Made by a program: the position numbers and the translations under genes. From Sulfurimonas sp. (GTDB lineage: Bacteria; Campylobacterota; Campylobacteria; Campylobacterales; Sulfurimonadaceae), in contig JAUSKV010000144.1 in assembly GCA_030646745.1 (NCBI GenBank), positions 1-6,451 of the forward strand: a DNA stretch of 6,451 bases, written 5' to 3'. Below the pieces are notes generated by a model. That model had not been told where the DNA came from, did not search any database, and was given only the letters and a program-made list of their open reading frames with translations. Positions 1 to 6,451 of this stretch are shown one piece after another. Positions within the stretch are counted from its first letter, which is position 1; the number at the start of each line of letters is the position of its first letter.

Positions 1-836
1 AACATGTTACTTCAAATAAACTAAAAGACCGTCTTGAAGCTGAAATGACAACAAATGTTGCTATGAAGTTAGAAATTGTTGGAGAGGGTAAATTTAAAGT
101 TTCAGGTCGTGGAGAGTTACAAATAACTATTCTTGCTGAAAATATGCGTCGTGAAAATTTTGAATTTGGTGTAAGTCGTCCGGAAGTTATCGTTAGAGAA
201 ATTGAAGGTGTTAAATGTGAACCGTTTGAGCATTTAGTTGTAGATGTTCCAGAAGAATTCAGTGGTTCAGTTATTGAAAAACTTGGTAAAAGAAAAGCAG
301 AAATGAAAGCAATGGTTCCAATGGGTCAAGGCTTTCAAAGAATTGAGTTTGAAATTCCGGCTCGTGCACTTATCGGATTCCGTGGACAATTCTTAACTGA
401 CACAAAAGGTGAAGGAATTATGAATCACTCTTTTTTAGAATTCCGTCCTTATAGTGGTACGGTTGAGTCAAGAACTTACGGTGCTCTTGTATCTATGGAA
501 AATGGTGAAACATTAGCGTATTCACTATTTAACATACAAGACCGTGGTGTTCTTTTCATAGGACCACAAACTAAGATATATGAGGGAATGATTGTTGGTG
601 AACACTCTCGCTCAAATGATTTAGTGGTAAATGCTATCAAAGGTAAAGCTCAGTCAAATGTTCGTTCATCAGGTGCCGATGAAGCTATTAAACTTATTCC
701 GCCAAGAGATATGTCACTAGAGCGTGCTTTAGAGTGGATTGAAGATGATGAACTTCTTGAAGTTACTCCAAAATCTATCCGTATTCGTAAAAGATATTTA
801 ACAGAAGCAGAAAGAAAAAGATACTCTCGCAAATAG
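1..836 (+). CDS. typA: GTP-binding protein TypA/BipA, C-terminal part (5' end outside window)
   Basis: TypA/BipA is a translational GTPase of the EF-G family that binds the 70S ribosome and helps 50S assembly and stress or cold adaptation. The reading frame is already open at base 3 ([15 protein letters not shown]), so the ATG at 45 is internal. The 277 residues present correspond to the last half of a roughly 600-residue protein: EF-G-like domain III ([14 protein letters not shown]...[17 protein letters not shown]), domain V ([21 protein letters not shown]) and the TypA-specific C-terminal domain ([32 protein letters not shown]). The last of these is nearly invariant in the family and separates TypA from LepA and EF-G. 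The GTPase domain lies outside the window. A hairpin terminator follows the stop closely, so this gene ends its transcription unit. Family assignment is by recalled motifs and is very secure. Confidence 0.97.
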
Positions 837-851
837 TCTCTTTCTTCAAAT

Positions 852-880
852 TTTCACAGGCAAAAGCCTGTGAAATTCTT
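852..880 (+). terminator. Rho-independent terminator after typA
   Basis: A perfect 10-bp inverted repeat (TTTCACAGGC at 852-861, GCCTGTGAAA at 866-875) encloses an AAAA loop and is followed by TTCTT. It starts 15 bp after the typA stop. The U-tract is short and interrupted, but the stem is perfect and has a GC-rich apex, which fits an intrinsic terminator. Confidence 0.8.
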
Positions 881-936
881 ACCTCGCATTAAAACCTTCT
901 GCATAGTCAAACTACTTTCTATTTTTGAAATGTCGA

Positions 937-942
937 TATACT
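937..942 (+). promoter_or_regulatory. Possible -10 element for the small membrane protein gene
   Basis: TATACT lies about 25 bp before the ATG at 967, in the 130-bp gap after the typA terminator. No convincing -35 hexamer is seen, which is common for housekeeping promoters in Campylobacterota. A start near 948 would leave a leader of about 20 bases holding only the ribosome binding site. The call rests on one hexamer plus position, since a promoter is expected between the terminator and the gene. Confidence 0.35.
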
Positions 943-966
943 TCCTCGAATAAAAAGGATAAAAAA

Positions 967-1230
967 ATGGATAATCTAATATATATTGGTTCGTTGATTT
1001 TAGTGGCTTTACTTATTTTTACATTCAACAGAACAAACAACACGAAGTTAATGTTATTGGCAGTAGCCATAGGTGCTTATATAATTTATTCCCATGAATC
1101 AGGTCACACTGCTACAGAATTTAAAGACAAAATGATAAACTCTGTTGATAAATCCGCTGAAAAATTTGTCGATAAATATGATACTGATATAAAAGATGCA
1201 GAAAAAGTAAAAAAAGAGTCACAAAAATAG
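967..1230 (+). CDS. Small two-helix membrane protein with charged C-terminal tail (unknown function)
   Basis: This is an 87-residue protein that I do not recognise. Residues 4-20 (LIYIGSLILVALLIFTF) and about 28-41 (LMLLAVAIGAYIIY) are two short hydrophobic segments joined by a polar turn (NRTNNTK), suggesting a helical hairpin in the inner membrane. Residues 44-87 are highly charged (DKMINSVDKSAEKFVDKYD...EKVKKESQK) and probably form an amphipathic or coiled-coil helix on one membrane face. A TTG at 925 would extend the frame by 14 residues, but the ATG at 967 has an AAGGAT ribosome binding site seven to twelve bases upstream, so I chose it. It stands between the typA terminator and the nrdB promoter, probably as a single-gene unit. 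No function should be inferred from its neighbours. Confidence 0.75.
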   Translation: MDNLIYIGSLILVALLIFTFNRTNNTKLMLLAVAIGAYIIYSHESGHTATEFKDKMINSVDKSAEKFVDKYDTDIKDAEKVKKESQK

Positions 1231-1269
1231 AAAAGCTTTTATTGGCTTCAATTAAACAAAAACTTCCGA

Positions 1270-1278
1270 TGCTATAAT
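1270..1278 (+). promoter_or_regulatory. Extended -10 promoter of the nrdB-thyX operon
   Basis: TGCTATAAT is a perfect TATAAT with the extended TGn element, in the only gap before nrdB (1231-1331). The expected start point is about 1284-1286, giving a leader of some 45 bases. No good -35 box lies 16-18 bp upstream; the region is AT-rich instead, as usual in Campylobacterota. The same ten bases, TGCTATAATG, recur in front of the helicase gene at 5903-5912. I saw no NrdR-box-like dyad here. Confidence 0.75.
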
Positions 1279-1331
1279 GACAGATTATAAATTTTATGTC
1301 AGTGAATAAATAAATAAGAGAGAGTAAGAAA

Positions 1332-2354
1332 GTGAATAGAAAAGAGATATATAATCCGAATTCAACCGAAAATGTAAATGATAGAAGGGTTTTTGGTGGA
1401 AATCCAACGGGTATTTTTGAACTAAATAATATCAAATACCAATGGGCATACAATCTTTGGGAAGTTATGTTGAATAACACATGGTTCCCAAAAGAAGTTG
1501 ATATGACAAGGGATGTAAATGACTATAAACAACTTACAGATGCCGAAAAAACAGCGTATGACAAAGCTCTCTCACAACTCATTTTTATGGATTCACTCCA
1601 AACAAACAATTTAATTGATAATATAAACCCATATGTAACTGCACCAGAGATTAACCTTATTTTGGTTCGTCAATCATTTGAAGAGGCGCTTCACTCACAA
1701 AGCTATGCGGTTATGGTTGACAGCATCTCACAAAATTCGGCAGAAATTTATGATTTATGGCGTCGCGATATGATGCTCAAAGGCAAAAATGATGCAATAG
1801 CGAGAGTTTATCAAGAGCTTGCAAAGAATCCATCCGAATATAACTTTGTAAAAGCCTGTTTTGCAAACCAGATTTTAGAGGGAATCTATTTTTACAGTGG
1901 TTTTGCCTACATCTATACTCTTGCAAGATCAGGAAAAATGTTAGGTTCAGCACAAATGATTCGGTTTATTCAAAGAGATGAAGTTACACACCTTGTTCTT
2001 TTTCAGAATCTTATAAATACGCTTCGAAAAGAGAGAGCGGATCTCTTTAGTGACAAACTAAGAGCAGAAGTTATTGAAATGTTTAAAGAGGCAGTAAAGC
2101 TTGAAACAGATTGGGGTAGATACATCACTCAGGGTCAGATTTTAGGTTTGACCGATGATATTGTTGAACAATATATTCAATTCTTAGCAGATGAGAGGTT
2201 AAATGCAGTTGGATTTGATAAGATTTACAATGTTACAAATCCGATTAAGTGGGTGAATGATTTTGCAAAATTTAATGATCAAAAAACTAACTTTTTTGAG
2301 GGAACCGTAACGAACTACTCAAAAGGAAGTCTATCATTTGATGATGACTTTTAG
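1332..2354 (+). CDS. nrdB: Class I ribonucleoside-diphosphate reductase, beta (small) subunit
   Basis: The beta subunit holds the metal/tyrosyl-radical cofactor that the alpha subunit (NrdA, not in this window) uses to reduce ribonucleoside diphosphates to deoxynucleotides in the cytoplasm. All residues expected from E. coli R2 are present at a constant early offset: metal ligand D87 (MDSLQ), E118 and H121 (EALHSQSY), E183 (ILEGIYFY), E217 and H220 (RDEVTH), with the radical tyrosine at Y125. Presence of that tyrosine argues for a tyrosyl-radical enzyme rather than a tyrosine-less class Ic type. The acidic C-terminal tail (SFDDDF) fits the peptide that docks into the alpha subunit. The length of 340 residues is normal. 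The start is GTG at 1332 with GAGAGAG at 1318-1324. It is the first gene of the operon, and the next start codon lies 9 bp after its stop. Confidence 0.96.
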
Positions 2355-2386
2355 AGAGTGAGCATGTACAAACTATGCTCACTCTC
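2354..2386 (+). promoter_or_regulatory. Hairpin across the nrdB stop and the hydrolase start codon
   Basis: A perfect 12-bp inverted repeat (GAGAGTGAGCAT at 2354-2365, ATGCTCACTCTC at 2375-2386) has a 9-base loop and is followed by ATTTATAA. The left arm contains the last base of the nrdB stop, the probable ribosome binding site GAGAG and the first two bases of the hydrolase ATG at 2364. The right arm is hydrolase coding sequence. It could be a weak terminator that lowers downstream expression, or a structure that hides the start until ribosomes finishing nrdB open it. The repeat is certain; the function is inferred. Confidence 0.6.
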
Positions 2387-3087
2387 ATTTATAACAACTA
2401 ACAACTATAACACTAACTTACAAACACTGCTAACACTTATAGAAGAAACCCCAGAAAATTCACTTATTGTAGCTCCAGAGGTATGTTTGAGTGGTTTTAA
2501 TTATGATAACTTTGGGAAAGTTTGTGACGCAGCTCCAATAGCCATAGAAGAGATAAAAAAAGCCTCAACAGATAAAATTATTATCTTAACTATCATCGAA
2601 AAAAGAGGAGATGAAGTTTTTAATTTTGCTAAAATTTTTCATAACGGTGAAGTTATATACGAGAGAGCCAAAGCAAGATTGTTCCTCTTCGGCGGAGAGG
2701 ATAAATATTTTTCTGAAGGCAGTGATGATGCAATTAAGATTATTGAAGTGGATGGGATAAAGATAGGAGTACTTATCTGTTTTGAACTTCGTTTTAAAGA
2801 GTTGTGGAAAAAGTTAGAGGGGTGTGATGTCATCGCTACACCCTCTTGGTGGGGGAGTTCTACGAACAGAACACTTCAAAACGCTTACAAGAGCATTAGC
2901 GATAATGAATCAGTGTTATGTGGTTGCAAGCGACAGTTTAAATGAAGATTGTACAAAAATGAGCGGAATCATAGCTCCAAACGGCAAAGTACGCCGTAAT
3001 GGGAATAGAGCTTGCTTAGAAGTAGATTATATTGAAAAAGAGATAACCTTAATGAGAAGATACATGGATGTTGGCATAGATGGATAG
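2364..3087 (+). pseudogene. Carbon-nitrogen hydrolase (nitrilase superfamily), split by a +1 frameshift
   Basis: Nitrilase-superfamily enzymes hydrolyse amides or nitriles with a Glu-Lys-Cys triad. All three are visible in the first frame: E39 (IVAPEVCLSGF), K103 (ERAKARLF) and C139 (GVLICFELRF). The substrate cannot be told. At residue 164 (ATPSWWG) the family-like sequence leaves this frame and continues in the next one as VLRTEHFKTLTRALAIMNQCYVVASDS and SGIIAPNGK, ending at 3087. One extra G in the run at 2851-2855 (five, where four keep the frame) explains this. Joined, the protein has about 240 residues, normal for the family; unrepaired, the first frame stops at 2945 after 193 residues. 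ATG 2364 matches the family N-terminus better than GTG 2358. The second frame is intact, so the lesion is very recent, a sequencing error, or recoded. Confidence 0.88.
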
Positions 3088-3718
3088 AATAACGGCTACA
3101 AAAACAACCAGATTAGCAGAAGATTGCCACCAAAAATTTGCTCTCAGCCCTGAAGTTAAAAATGCTATTGCAAATACAAATAGAGAGGCTTTTGTTCCCA
3201 TGGGACTTAAGCATAATGCTTACAAACTAGATGCTCTGCCTATGGGCTATGCACAGTGGATAAGTTCTCCTTTAACTGTTGCGAAGATGAGCCAATATTT
3301 AGAGCCAAAAGGTGGTTTTAAAGTTTTAGAGGTTGGATGTGGAAGCGGTTATCAAGCAGCGGTGCTCTCGCACATGTTTCGTGGAGTTTTTACCATAGAG
3401 AGAATTGAGTCGTTAATGTTCGAAGCAAAATCTCGCTTTAGAGAGCTAAACCTAAACAATATTCATACAAAAATAGATGATGGACAAAATGGTTGGAAGC
3501 AGTATGCTCCCTATGATAGAATACTATTCTCTGCCTCGGCAAAAGTGATACCGCAAAAAATTTTTGAGCAACTCACTGATGGCGGGATTTTAATAGCACC
3601 TATAGAAAAAGCCGGTAAGCAGATAATAACCCGCTTTAAAAAAAACGGTGCAAATATTGAACAGACCGAATTAGAAGCGTGCGATTTTGTTCCTATTTTG
3701 GATGGCATACAAAAATAA
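3080..3718 (+). CDS. pcm: Protein-L-isoaspartate O-methyltransferase (Pcm family)
   Basis: Pcm transfers a methyl group from S-adenosylmethionine to isoaspartyl residues in aged proteins, starting their repair in the cytoplasm. The 212-residue protein has the family order: an N-terminal helical part ending in REAFVPMGLKHNAYKLDALPMGYAQWISSP (35-64), SAM-binding motif I VLEVGCGSGYQAAVL (82-96), an acidic post-I end (FTIERIE), YDRILFSASAKVIPQ, GGILIAPI and the closing FVPILDG. The usual GQTISxP loop reads AQWISSP, with Trp in the Thr position, so this member is somewhat divergent and the substrate is slightly less certain. Its ATG lies inside the hydrolase 3' end (8 bp overlap) with only a poor ribosome binding site, suggesting translation coupled to the upstream gene. 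The stop overlaps an ATG of the thyX frame (TAATG). Confidence 0.88.
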   Translation: MDRITATKTTRLAEDCHQKFALSPEVKNAIANTNREAFVPMGLKHNAYKLDALPMGYAQWISSPLTVAKMSQYLEPKGGFKVLEVGCGSGYQAAVLSHMFRGVFTIERIESLMFEAKSRFRELNLNNIHTKIDDGQNGWKQYAPYDRILFSASAKVIPQKIFEQLTDGGILIAPIEKAGKQIITRFKKNGANIEQTELEACDFVPILDGIQK

Positions 3719-3729
3719 TGGAGATATTT

Positions 3730-4563
3730 ATGGAGATGTACGGCATAAAATATTCACAACCAAAAGTAGTTCTACTGCAAGATACAGGTATTGGCGTAGC
3801 AGAGGCTGCTGCACGAACATGCTATGACTCATTTGAAAATAGTGAAAATGAGGTTATTAAACAGATTGAAACCAACATGCCAGAAGCGGAGGAGTGCAGT
3901 GCCATAAACTCTATTGAAGATTCAACTCTTTTAAGTGACTTGGCTTGGACCTACTTTCATCACTCTATTTTAGAACATGCAAACCTCAGTTTTTTAATTC
4001 GCGGCACTTCAAGAGGTGTACTTCAAGAGCATGCAAGACACCGGATTCAGGCTATATCTGTACGAAGCACCCGTTACACCATGAGCTCTGTCATCAACGC
4101 TTTTGTCGCATCAAAACATGGAGGAGACAGAGAGTTTTTCATAGATAAGATTTTAGATTTTGACATGTTTGTAACGACAGATAAAGAGTATAATAGAATT
4201 GAAATAGGCGCAATTTATGATAAACTTGAGTTTCAGTCACAAAGAGTGGAAGATTTTGTTGACATGGCTGTTGCAAAAAGTTCTCTCCCCTTTATAGAAG
4301 AGTTTTCCGGCAATGCACAGGCGCTTTTTGAAGCATTAGAGGTTGGTAAAAAGAAAAAGAATGTAGGCGACGCTTTTAAGCACATCATTACTGACAATGT
4401 AAAAGTTGACATGGTTGTAACATTTAATCTTAGAAGTTTAAAAAACTATTTTACACTCAGAGATAGCGGTGCGGCATATTTTCAAATTCGCTGGCTAGCT
4501 CAGGAGATGATGCGAGCGACACCATCGAAATATTTAGATTTAATTATTAAAAAGAAATCATAA
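3730..4563 (+). CDS. thyX: Flavin-dependent thymidylate synthase ThyX
   Basis: ThyX makes dTMP from dUMP using methylene-tetrahydrofolate and FAD/NADPH, replacing ThyA. The signature RHRx7SxR is complete: R103, H104, R105, S113 and R115 (RHRIQAISVRSTR). The FAD-site HHSILEH (77-83), the SRGVLQE lead-in and the C-terminal NLRSLKNYFTLRDSGAAYFQIRWLAQEM (233-260), with its nucleotide-binding arginine, are also present. At 277 residues it is longer than the short Helicobacter type, with extra sequence at about 36-66 and 130-220. The start at 3730 has GGAG at 3720-3723, six bases upstream; in-frame ATGs at 3718 and 3736 are alternatives. It is the fourth gene of the nrdB operon, so dNTP reduction and dTMP synthesis share a transcript. 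Confidence 0.96.
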   Translation: MEMYGIKYSQPKVVLLQDTGIGVAEAAARTCYDSFENSENEVIKQIETNMPEAEECSAINSIEDSTLLSDLAWTYFHHSILEHANLSFLIRGTSRGVLQEHARHRIQAISVRSTRYTMSSVINAFVASKHGGDREFFIDKILDFDMFVTTDKEYNRIEIGAIYDKLEFQSQRVEDFVDMAVAKSSLPFIEEFSGNAQALFEALEVGKKKKNVGDAFKHIITDNVKVDMVVTFNLRSLKNYFTLRDSGAAYFQIRWLAQEMMRATPSKYLDLIIKKKS

Positions 4564-4576
4564 AAAAAGGATTCAC

Positions 4577-4807
4577 ATGTCTAAAAAAACAGTGTTTTGG
4601 AAGTTGTGTTTAGCATCAGTAGTTGTTTTTGGAGGATGTGCAAATATGACATTTAATGCTCAGATGTGTCAAAATATAAGATTAGACCCTCAGGCTACTA
4701 TGCCTCAAGAGTGTATGAAATACAGCGAGGAAGAGGCTGCAAAAGCGTCTATCAAACCATCCGAGAAAATTCAGTCAAAAGAAAGTTTAGAATTTAACAA
4801 AGAGTAA
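4577..4807 (+). CDS. Small predicted lipoprotein (unknown function)
   Basis: This is a 76-residue protein with a lipoprotein signal: positive N-terminus (MSKKTVFWK), hydrophobic core LCLASVVVF and a lipobox-like FGGC with the lipidated cysteine at C21. Phe at -3 is less usual than Leu, but G-G-C is good. Residue +2 is Ala, so the outer membrane is the expected destination by the E. coli rule. The mature part has about 56 residues, with two further cysteines (C31, C46) that could form a disulfide in the periplasm, then a charged lysine/glutamate-rich tail. The ribosome binding site AAGGA precedes the ATG closely, and the gene begins 13 bp after thyX, so it is the last operon gene. The function is not recognisable. 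Confidence 0.8.
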   Translation: MSKKTVFWKLCLASVVVFGGCANMTFNAQMCQNIRLDPQATMPQECMKYSEEEAAKASIKPSEKIQSKESLEFNKE

Positions 4808-4826
4808 AAGAATTTTTACTCTTTGT
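4797..4826. terminator. Bidirectional terminator between convergent genes
   Basis: A perfect 13-bp inverted repeat (ACAAAGAGTAAAA at 4797-4809, TTTTACTCTTTGT at 4814-4826) with a GAAT loop. The A-rich and T-rich inner arms and nearby T-runs let it serve both strands. It contains the stop codons of both the lipoprotein gene (plus) and the repeat-tailed gene (minus). Confidence 0.85.
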
Positions 4827-5799
4827 CCGCGGGTTTTTTAAGAGATTTTATATTTATCTTTTTGCCGGTAAGCACTGGAGCAGACTCTCTTTTAGAACCA
4901 TCGTGACGATGATTCCTATCCCCTGATTTGCCGGAAAATATAGCTTTTCCATTCTCATCTTTACCTAAAAATGTCGAACTTTTTTTATCTTTGTCATAAG
5001 GCTTTTTAAATCCGGATTTGCCATCTTTGTCAAAAGGTTTCTTAAAGCCGGACTTATCATCTTTTTTATCTTTATCCCATGGTTTTTTTGCAGCAGATTT
5101 GTCATCTTTATCCCATGGTTTTTTGAAGCTAGGCTTGTTATCATCTTTTTTATCTTTGTCCCAAGGCTTCTTTGCACCAAACTTATCATCTTTTTTGTTC
5201 TTATCATAAGGCTTTTTAAATTCAGATTTTTCATCCTTTTTATCTCTGTCATAAGGCTTCGCTGAACGAGGTTTGTCATCTCTTGATGGTCTATCTCCAA
5301 ATTTTTTCTTCTCACCTTTGAAGTCGCTATTTCTTGGTTTAAAATCTTTTCTCTCTTCTCTTGGCGCGTACTCTTTTTTTACAACTTCCGCCTTTACAAC
5401 AATAGCCGGTCCGAAGCCTTCAATTGGCTCTTGCATAATAGTTCGCCCAATGAGTGTCTCTATCGGGTAGAGAAGTTTCTCCTCTTCTTGGTCGAGTAAA
5501 ATGAGTGCATATGAGGTTGCGTGGGCAATTCTTGCCATGTAAGCAATGGCTTTGTCGGGTAAGTTGTAGCTAATTAGAAGTTCAGCTCTAAGTTCCGGCG
5601 CGTTTAGCAAGTCATCATCATTTATAAAAGTGATATTTTTTGAATTTTCACTATTTTCAATTGTTTCACAAGTGACAACAATAATTTTTTTGCCCTCATT
5701 TTTCATGAGAAGCAGGTTTAAAAGCTCCTGTTTTTTCTCTGATTGACATGGGTGAACACGATGGTTGTGGCGTTTTAAAGTTGGAGTAGAAGATGGCAT
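4816..5799 (-). CDS. Degenerate helicase C-domain protein with K-P-aromatic-D-K repeat tail
   Basis: This is a 327-residue protein. Residues 8-37 (LKRHNHRV...KKQELLNLL...KKIIVVT) and 68-121 (PELRAELLISYNLPDKAIAYMARIAHATS...LLDQEEEKLLYPIETLIGRTI) line up by eye with the second RecA domain of RhlE-type helicases, where they would read QHxHxVDxxRKRELL...VLVFTRT and VVNYxLPxxPEDYVHRIGRTGR...LLRDIEKLLKKEI. The ATDIAARGLDI region (motif V) is missing and the arginine-finger motif VI is replaced by ARIAHATS, so ATPase activity is not expected. Residues 181-279 are seven charged repeats, probably disordered. The start at 5799 has AAGGA six bases upstream; the frame runs on to 5898, but that part is promoter and leader. 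It is transcribed divergently from the helicase gene. A role as RNA-binding or helicase partner is my inference. Confidence 0.75.
   Translation of the reverse strand: MPSSTPTLKRHNHRVHPCQSEKKQELLNLLLMKNEGKKIIVVTCETIENSENSKNITFINDDDLLNAPELRAELLISYNLPDKAIAYMARIAHATSYALILLDQEEEKLLYPIETLIGRTIMQEPIEGFGPAIVVKAEVVKKEYAPREERKDFKPRNSDFKGEKKKFGDRPSRDDKPRSAKPYDRDKKDEKSEFKKPYDKNKKDDKFGAKKPWDKDKKDDNKPSFKKPWDKDDKSAAKKPWDKDKKDDKSGFKKPFDKDGKSGFKKPYDKDKKSSTFLGKDENGKAIFSGKSGDRNHRHDGSKRESAPVLTGKKINIKSLKKPADKE
4963..5259 (-). repeat. Seven imperfect tandem repeats inside the minus-strand gene
   Basis: On the minus strand this codes seven units of 12-16 residues with consensus K-P-[Y/W/F]-D-K-D-K-K-D-D-K-S-x-x-K. 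The unit heads are KPYDRD, KPYDKN, KPWDKD, KPWDKD, KPWDKD, KPFDKD and KPYDKD. Each carries exactly one aromatic residue among alternating lysines and aspartates. At DNA level the plus strand shows recurring runs such as ATCTTTATCCCATGGTTTTT. Units vary by whole codons, so copy number can change without breaking the frame. Confidence 0.9.
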
Positions 5800-5815
5800 A
5801 AAAATCCTTGAGTGA

Positions 5816-5845
5816 TTTGCAGCTGTAGAAGTTGTACGCTGCAAA
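5816..5845 (-). promoter_or_regulatory. Hairpin in the predicted 5' leader of the minus-strand gene
   Basis: TTTGCAGC (5816-5823) and GCTGCAAA (5838-5845) form a perfect 8-bp stem, with a further GTA/TAC pairing inside a 14-base loop. On the minus strand it falls between the predicted -10 (5857-5862) and the ribosome binding site near 5805. It has no following U-run on that strand, so it reads as leader structure rather than a terminator. Its function is unknown. Confidence 0.5.
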
Positions 5846-5856
5846 ATTGTTGCGTG

Positions 5857-5862
5857 ATTATA
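5857..5862 (-). promoter_or_regulatory. -10 element for the repeat-tailed protein gene
   Basis: The minus strand reads ACGCTATAATC, with a perfect TATAAT at 5862-5857. A start near 5850 would give a leader of about 50 bases containing the 5816-5845 hairpin. No clear -35 box is seen. It lies back to back with the helicase promoter, 43 bp between the two -10 boxes, so the polymerase footprints should overlap. Confidence 0.65.
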
Positions 5863-5902
5863 GCGTAAATGTACTGTGAGAGTTTCATTCTTACGCAAAA
5901 TC

Positions 5903-5911
5903 TGCTATAAT
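5903..5911 (+). promoter_or_regulatory. Extended -10 promoter of the DEAD-box helicase gene
   Basis: TGCTATAAT, a perfect -10 with the TGn extension, identical to the nrdB promoter element including the following G. The start is expected about 5917-5919, leaving a leader of some 36 bases. The best -35 candidate is TTTCAT at 5883-5888, with 17-bp spacing and a poor match. Confidence 0.72.
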
Positions 5912-5953
5912 GCCCCAAATTTAGCCTATTTAAGCTAATGTAAAAGGTAGTTA

Positions 5954-6451
5954 ATGTCATTTAAACAACTCGGGCTCATTGAGCCACTTCTAAAAGCCAT
6001 CCAAGAGCAGGGTTACACAGAACCCACTCCTGTTCAAAAGCAGGCAATTCCTGTTATTTTAGCCAGAAAAGATATTCTTGCAGGTGCACAAACCGGAACC
6101 GGTAAAACAGCAGGTTTTACGCTCCCAATGCTCCAACTTTTAAGTCAGCATAAGCGAGCACACAACAAACCGGAGATTCGTGCGCTTATTTTAACTCCAA
6201 CAAGAGAACTTGCATCTCAAGTTGCCGAGAGTGTAGATATTTATGGAAAACATCTTCCTTTTAAATCGACTGTAATATTTGGCGGAGTCAAGATAAACCC
6301 TCAGCTTGTTGCTCTAAGAAAAGGTGTTGATATTGTTATCGCAACTCCCGGGCGACTCTTGGACCACATTTCTCAGAAAACTATTGACCTATCAAAAGTT
6401 GATTTTTTGATTTTGGATGAAGCGGATAGAATGCTGGATATGGGCTTTATA
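5954..6451 (+). CDS. rhlE: DEAD-box RNA helicase, RhlE type, N-terminal part (3' end outside window)
   Basis: This is an ATP-dependent RNA helicase that remodels RNA, typically in ribosome assembly or mRNA decay. The 166 residues present are most of RecA domain 1, with motifs in order: Q motif ([13 protein letters not shown], 20-32), Walker A AQTGTGKT (45-52), Ia PTRELA, GG (FGGV), Ib TPGR, and DEAD at 155-158 within [12 protein letters not shown]. The opening [16 protein letters not shown] and [31 protein letters not shown] are typical of RhlE among DEAD-box subfamilies. The ATG has AAAAGG upstream (5942-5947) and its own promoter. The frame is open at the window edge, so motifs III-VI and any C-terminal tail are not visible. 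The symbol reflects subfamily resemblance. Confidence 0.93.

Follow-up and report, generated by a model that had tools for sequence, protein, structure and literature searches.

What role remains for a helicase domain once its motor is gone, and are RecA2 domains kept for docking? These questions are raised by a gene on a 6,451-nucleotide stretch of Sulfurimonas sp. DNA (contig JAUSKV010000144.1, positions 1 to 6,451; this whole stretch is called the window). The gene is transcribed divergently from an RhlE-type DEAD-box helicase gene and encodes a protein whose N-terminal domain resembles the second RecA-like domain (RecA2) of such helicases. The original prediction described a dead RhlE-type RecA2 domain that is maintained rather than decaying, and profile matches, predicted fold, purifying selection and family-wide presence bear this out. 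We regard the protein as a RecA2-only relative of RhlE that has lost the catalytic motifs and is under purifying selection, and we give an even chance to its being an adaptor that docks a partner in RNA decay or remodelling while its basic tail holds RNA. The gene and its parts are as follows:

4816..5799, minus strand: RecA2-only pseudohelicase gene, 327 amino acids plus stop, with 64 relatives and presence in 187/228 family genomes
5395..5799, minus strand: degenerate N-terminal RecA2 domain (N-domain), residues 1–135, from hhalign, hmmsearch against PDB, the AlphaFold2 model and fold searches
5746..5775, minus strand: signature KRHNHRVHPC, residues 9–18, aligned to RhlE QVIHPVD
5596..5637, minus strand: motif V-equivalent stretch NITFINDDDLLNAP, residues 55–68, with D61 retained and ARG(I/L)D lost
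5512..5541, minus strand: motif VI-equivalent stretch, residues 87–96, YMARIAHATS against YVHRIGRTGR, with Y87 and R90 retained and HRIGRTGR lost
5413..5466, minus strand: conserved block PIETLIGRTIMQEPIEGF, residues 112–129, aligned to Escherichia coli RhlB PAIETYIGHSIPVSKY, inside the proposed RNase E dock
4999..5394, minus strand: low-complexity basic linker of KKPWDKDKKDD-type repeats, residues 136–267, net charge +18, predicted local distance difference test score mostly about 50 or less
4819..4998, minus strand: conserved C-terminal box, residues 268–327, FLGKDENGKAIFSGKSGDRNHRHDG...GKKINIKSLKK, from family alignments, with a nonsynonymous distance (dN) of 0–0.007 to relatives L003 and L004

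The RecA2 domain and its lost motifs

We compared the pseudohelicase family with both RecA domains of RhlE-type helicases using hhalign. The match to RecA2 has a probability of 97.8 and an E value of 6.7e-13, and the match to RecA1 of the same helicases a probability of 0.1 and an E value of 0.46, each E value referring to one comparison with no database correction. The NCBIfam RhlE profile also matches the window protein (E 2.4e-7), and the resemblance first aligned by eye is therefore more than chance. With 30 bits, the protein stays far below the curated RhlE cut-off of 743, which does not discriminate here because the full helicases of the same genome also stay under it (best 474.8).

Profile and structure predictions for the N-domain (hhalign, hmmsearch against PDB, AlphaFold2 and fold searches) agree on a RecA2 fold. 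In the AlphaFold2 model the elements follow in the order β 13–17, helix 20–33, β 39–42, β 56–59, helix 61–66, β 72–77, helix 84–92, β 94–102 and helix 107–117. The N-domain is thus a DEAD-box-type RecA2 domain by profiles and by predicted fold.

The sequence begins at the RecA2 boundary and has no RecA1 domain, and with it neither Walker A nor DEAD motif. To follow the remaining motifs, we used 109 distinct N-domains, 64 from the homologue search and 45 from loci, with near-identical sequences kept in; 39 of the 45, from 49 loci tried, were found using the motif at residues 9–14. ARG[ILV]D of motif V occurs in 0/109, the motif IV phenylalanine in 0/109, and HRIGR and GRTGR, whose loss from motif VI was originally predicted, in 0/109 each. 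By contrast, D61 of motif V and Y87 and R90 (the tyrosine and first arginine of motif VI) are kept in 109/109. We take D61 and R90 to serve the fold. Such a pattern is expected of a domain that keeps its fold without its chemistry, and the protein is presumably without ATPase activity. A predicted enzyme fold that is kept, catalytic residues that are lost and maintenance by selection together mark it as a putative pseudoenzyme.

The motif V stretch itself is not deleted, as had been proposed: the distance from D61 to P81 (LP) is 20 steps in pseudohelicase and RhlE alike, free of gaps. The missing segment sits between motifs IV and V, where RhlE has 53 residues and the pseudohelicase 20 (counted from the motif IV phenylalanine to the motif V aspartate), and corresponds to a helix-strand-helix of RhlE. 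In the N-terminal signature, K9, H13, R14, H16, P17 and C18 are invariant in alignment A1, which holds 42 of 65 proteins. Residues 9–14 are not universal, and loci L033 and L041, which are not among the 109, differ there.

Maintenance, distribution and the divergent helicase

The following features lie upstream of the gene:

5805..5809, minus strand: ribosome-binding site AAGGA
5857..5862, minus strand: TATAAT −10-like box of the pseudohelicase gene, 57 nucleotides upstream of the ATG, from the intergenic comparison
5906..5911, plus strand: TATAAT −10-like box of rhlE, a perfect hexamer on this strand in 12/30 regions
5954..6451, plus strand: divergent RhlE-type DEAD-box helicase, first 166 residues, the window ending inside the gene

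The reading frame, the ATG at 5799, the AAGGA site and the stop at 4816 are all as predicted. This ATG is the usual start of the family, at which the family alignment begins in nearly all rows shown; an alternative, longer TTG-started frame would start upstream of the gene's TATAAT box.

We compared intergenic regions from the window and 29 of 41 loci tried; of these 30 regions, 26 are distinct, since four pairs are duplicate contigs. A perfect TATAAT is present on the pseudohelicase strand in 30/30, within 80 nucleotides of the ATG in 26/30, and somewhere in 24% of mononucleotide-shuffled controls. A scan for the two-hexamer sigma-70 consensus found 3 sites against 3.1 in shuffles, and the TATAAT boxes were not among them; only the intergenic comparison is informative on the promoter.

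Ratios of nonsynonymous to synonymous change (dN/dS) were obtained from Nei-Gojobori counts against L003 and L004, the closest relatives; against L005 and L006, synonymous sites are saturated or close to it. For the pseudohelicase the ratio is 0.07–0.08 over the whole gene, 0.12–0.17 in the N-domain, 0.06–0.07 in the linker and 0–0.01 in the C-terminal box, compared with about 0.01 for the available part of RhlE and 0.06 for ThyX. The N-domain is thus constrained, though less strongly than RhlE. No part of the protein changes more slowly than the box (GKDENGKAIFSGKSGDRNHRHDG), which is predicted to hold two short strands.

A protein search with residues 1–135 returned 64 proteins with 52–93% identity, none with a Pfam domain; named relatives come from Sulfurimonas, Helicobacteraceae and Campylobacterales assemblies, and the proteins are currently labelled hypothetical or, in a few cases, 'superfamily II DNA/RNA helicase'. 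In a set of 298 genomes from the order, the strong matches, at E 8e-30 or better, are confined to the window's own family (25/29 of its genomes); matches outside it have E values of 4e-15 and weaker and mostly fall within frames of full-helicase length. Across the whole family, 187/228 genomes carry the gene at E 1e-18, including 124/139 good assemblies, and a stop falls inside the match in 3 rows among the family-genome matches listed.

The C-terminal box found 325 proteins among candidates of 0.55–1.75 times the query length; the 120 matches listed are 183–349 residues long and have no Pfam domain. Of these, 86 were new to the N-domain search, and the N-domain was recognized in 78 by motif and in 8 by eye, two of the latter being shortened at the N-terminus and holding only the rest of it. 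Within those length limits and among the matches listed, the box appears to belong to the pseudohelicase family, and it occurs once in the window's own genome. The box motif is present in 96/110 full sequences, and 7 are without both the motif and a later RNH. Six members (L042, L044, L046, L047, L049 and L013) keep the N-domain without the box motif, and the box is therefore not strictly required.

The gene was said to lie beside an intact rhlE of its probable parent family. The divergent pair is present here; since the window holds 166 residues of the helicase, its intactness is deduced from relatives. rhlE is directly divergent at 9/16 loci in a first sample and at 9/25 in a second. Both genes could be located in 121 genomes: in 84 they lie within 5 kb, head-to-head in all 84 and, in 81 of these, with 73–378 bp between the matched stretches. 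In the other 37 they are not close, and genus g5 has no close pair in any of 15 genomes. Proximity to rhlE is thus frequent among relatives, but it does not hold always.

The two genes also tend to occur together. Among 228 genomes, 165 have both, 22 the pseudohelicase alone (one being the window's own, where the contig end cuts rhlE), 10 RhlE alone and 31 neither (Fisher odds ratio 23, p 9e-16). For the 139 good assemblies, tabulated from the presence tallies and completeness columns, the numbers are 116, 8, 4 and 11 (odds ratio 40, p 1.3e-8). Genome G312 lacks both genes at the limits used, and in its congener G102 they lie 226 kb apart; this joint absence, in one reduced genome, hints at a tie beyond linkage.

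Candidate functions

We also compared mean column identities. In 33 sequences of the adjacent RhlE type, these are 0.99 for motif V, 1.0 for motif VI and 0.70 for the block that follows. The pseudohelicase values are 0.58 for β3 plus motif V, 0.59 for motif VI and 0.79 for the following block (residues 112–129), with 0.82 for β4 and 0.90 for residues 9–18, the last affected by motif circularity. The order of conservation is reversed: among the three blocks compared, the adjacent RhlE type is best conserved at its catalytic motifs, whereas the pseudohelicase is better conserved in the block after motif VI.

This block contains PIETLIG, which aligns with PAIETYIG of E. coli RhlB. Both segments are conserved, and the match is weak beyond PAIETYIG. 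A two-sequence BLASTP of the N-domain against RhlB gives E 8e-5, and the alignment ends in block 112–129. Worrall and colleagues (PMC7611231) place the surface of RhlB that is proposed to bind RNase E at residues 368–397, separate from the helicase motifs; we took the RhlB sequence from NC_000913, and the residue numbering of that paper is one lower than the record.

The conserved block at this position and the basic tail together suggest a protein-docking, RNA-holding adaptor. In such an adaptor, conserved faces would bind a protein, the RecA2 domain would dock a component of the RNA-decay or RNA-remodelling machinery, and the tail would hold RNA. The partner may belong to a complex for RNA decay or ribosome assembly; RNase J and RhlE are candidates. 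RNase J is named because the Epsilonproteobacteria surveyed in PMC5874925 are described there as having RNase J but no RNase E/G. More cautiously, the protein may be RNA-associated without a tie to decay.

Several observations weigh against the adaptor. The two sequence sets behind the block identities differ in breadth, and conservation of the block may serve the fold, since the core strand β4 is at least equally conserved. The dock was assigned by alignment to one E. coli protein, and the RhlB site is proposed rather than solved. RNA binding by the tail is a guess from charge, because the linker has 31 acidic residues (D+E) beside its 49 basic ones (K+R). At what we take to be the arginine-finger positions, a single arginine persists in 26/109 N-domains (first position) and 1/109 (second), and the counts for residues 9–14 are partly circular because 39 sequences were found by that motif. 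In the 37 of 121 genomes without a close pair, the genes are far apart on one contig in 8 and on different contigs in 29, some of which may be assembly breaks. Relatedness, linkage and incomplete assemblies confound the co-occurrence, and the first two inflate both odds ratios. Finally, among 25 carriers from the order sample, the adjacent RhlE type is missing in two near-complete genomes, G114 and G158.

The strongest competitor, which we consider a possible though less probable account, is an RNA-binding or ribosome-associated protein with no functional tie to RhlE or RNA decay, in which the RecA2 fold only supports the conserved N-terminus, the tail and the C-terminal box. Its place beside rhlE would then be a relic or reflect a shared promoter region. 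Such a protein would explain why the gene persists with rhlE elsewhere (the same 37 genomes) and why the adjacent RhlE type was not found in 22/187 carriers, one of them the window genome with its cut rhlE. It would also fit a slowest-changing part, the C-terminal box, that is absent from the helicases seen, while all 86 listed proteins known only from the box search carry the N-domain (two of them its rest). The head-to-head arrangement in 84/84 close pairs and the co-occurrence with RhlE argue against it, although both are confounded.

We think it rather unlikely that the protein is a regulator or decoy of the neighbouring RhlE, a free RecA2 domain that competes for RecA1 or a helicase partner and lowers activity. 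Its kinship to RhlE RecA2 and the divergent gene order would suit this role, and there is a precedent in RraA, which is reported to bind the RecA2 domain of SrmB and lower the ATPase activity of this DEAD-box enzyme (PMC3814787). On the other hand, genomes exist that have the pseudohelicase but not the adjacent RhlE type, and motifs V and VI are the parts that lost their residues. These motifs face RecA1, and the loss of those residues therefore argues against a domain swap.

A decaying pseudogene or annotation accident, which the low-complexity tail with its DNA repeats and the missing Pfam domain might suggest, is rejected as very improbable given a dN/dS of 0.07–0.08, presence in 187/228 genomes, a conserved start and the TATAAT box. 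Equally improbable is a chance resemblance of some other fold to RecA2: by itself the window protein matches nothing in Pfam, and Helicase_C is matched, weakly, by 2/42 family members, but hhalign, hmmsearch and fold searches all indicate the RecA2 family. A phage or defence link was dropped, as neither PHROGs nor PADLOC matches the window protein at E 0.01.

Relatives, origin and neighbouring genes

The pseudohelicase shares with RhlE-type helicases (NCBIfam NF007882 and NF053710) the RecA2 fold, the order of elements from β1 to the last helix, the NYxLP-like strand, the tyrosine and first arginine of motif VI, the block after motif VI and a basic C-terminal tail. Unlike them, it has no RecA1, Walker A, DEAD, motif IV phenylalanine, ARG-D or HRIGRTGR, is about 33 residues shorter between motifs IV and V and carries the C-terminal box as an addition.

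Pseudohelicases are few. The authors describing Utp25 of the yeast small-subunit (SSU) processome in 2022 called it, to their knowledge, the second proposed one after Deinococcus radiodurans PriA (PMC9539457). As described there, Utp25 is an inactive, conserved DEAD-box relative that keeps its fold, but it is eukaryotic and has both RecA-like domains, whereas our protein has one; PriA is a bacterial helicase relative that lost catalytic activity, but it is a DNA helicase rather than a stand-alone RecA2 of DEAD-box type. Neither protein consists of one RecA2 domain alone. RhlB (PMC7611231) offers a RecA2 domain as a dock for RNase E but is an active helicase, and docking by the pseudohelicase is putative. 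In the related Helicobacter pylori, RhpA is a DEAD-box protein that acts with RNase J in a minimal degradosome, but it is reported as a complete helicase related to the CsdA family (PMC5874925).

In the literature listings that we searched, mostly without subscription papers, no description of the present family turned up. A one-domain DEAD-box pseudoenzyme in most genomes of a family, often head-to-head with an active relative, would be a small and tractable case, and the family gains a label in place of 'hypothetical'.

RecA2 comparisons place the pseudohelicase family closest to the RhlE-like groups; the DeaD-like group is distant. Median scores against the family profile are 58.9 bits for the helicases of loci L053–L055 and L057, 48.7 for a second RhlE-like group and 44.9 for the adjacent type, a ranking that is biased because the first four loci were fetched for matching this profile. 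The closest active RecA2 domains among those fetched come from RhlE-type helicases of two other families, which qualifies the parentage first assigned to the neighbour. An inverted duplication of the neighbouring RhlE is unsupported, since helicases of these families score higher in the same biased ranking.

The L053–L055 and L057 helicases are a distinct RhlE type, by eye mostly next to a truD-like gene, and share the ending G(K/R)xIxQE...G(Y/F). The end of their RecA2 domain (GKAITQE...GYAPE) resembles the pseudohelicase more than the neighbouring RhlE does. This type occurs in 10/298 genomes, in families f6 and f7 and not in the window's family, counted at a limit of E 1e-130. The ten include G215, at 57% identity, but not two additional matches of 53–54%. 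That the pseudohelicase is a decapitated helicase of this type is an idea only, because these helicases were fetched for matching and are rare. A tree unites all 20 pseudohelicase rows in a single clade (100/100) with a long branch and does not place its origin.

The genome encodes a second stand-alone RecA2 protein (G000:C195:2810-3451, equivalent to L002 1210–1851), with 214 amino acids and a Pfam Helicase_C match at E 1.4e-16. Its motif V reads TDTILQTLNL and its motif VI YFVRVGHLKEVG, and by eye the gene lies beside an apparent molybdopterin-oxidoreductase frame. Similar short frames (215–246 residues between stops, 41–52% identity) occur in 7 more of the 298 genomes, bringing the total to 8, spread over three families. 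Motif V has no ARG-D and motif VI no HRIGRTGR in any of them, and each retains the stretch between motifs IV and V that is missing from the window pseudohelicase. The C195 protein is thus, like the pseudohelicase, a stand-alone degenerate RecA2 with a basic tail, but it retains this stretch, has no C-terminal box and is found in 8/298 genomes of the order. Either degenerate RecA2 proteins of this stand-alone kind evolved repeatedly, or the C195 type is an older branch of the same line. It is conceivable, if doubtful, that a family-wide single-RecA2 pseudohelicase serves an RNase J-based degradosome as a dedicated subunit without catalysis; the nuclease-docking half of the motor would have become a stand-alone RNA tether, and this genome would have two such proteins.

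The window further encodes the end of typA/bipA, a ribonucleotide reductase small chain, a carbon-nitrogen hydrolase, an isoaspartate methyltransferase and thyX, in addition to two small proteins with no convincing Pfam match. One of these (4577–4807) has a signal-like start by eye and is a possible lipoprotein, with no Pfam match over its cut-off; it occurs near thyX in 8/16 named relatives. The carbon-nitrogen hydrolase gene (2358–3087) is seemingly split into two frames that overlap near 2824–2945. L009 carries a single frame of 238 amino acids, and the split in the window would be a frameshift or an assembly error.
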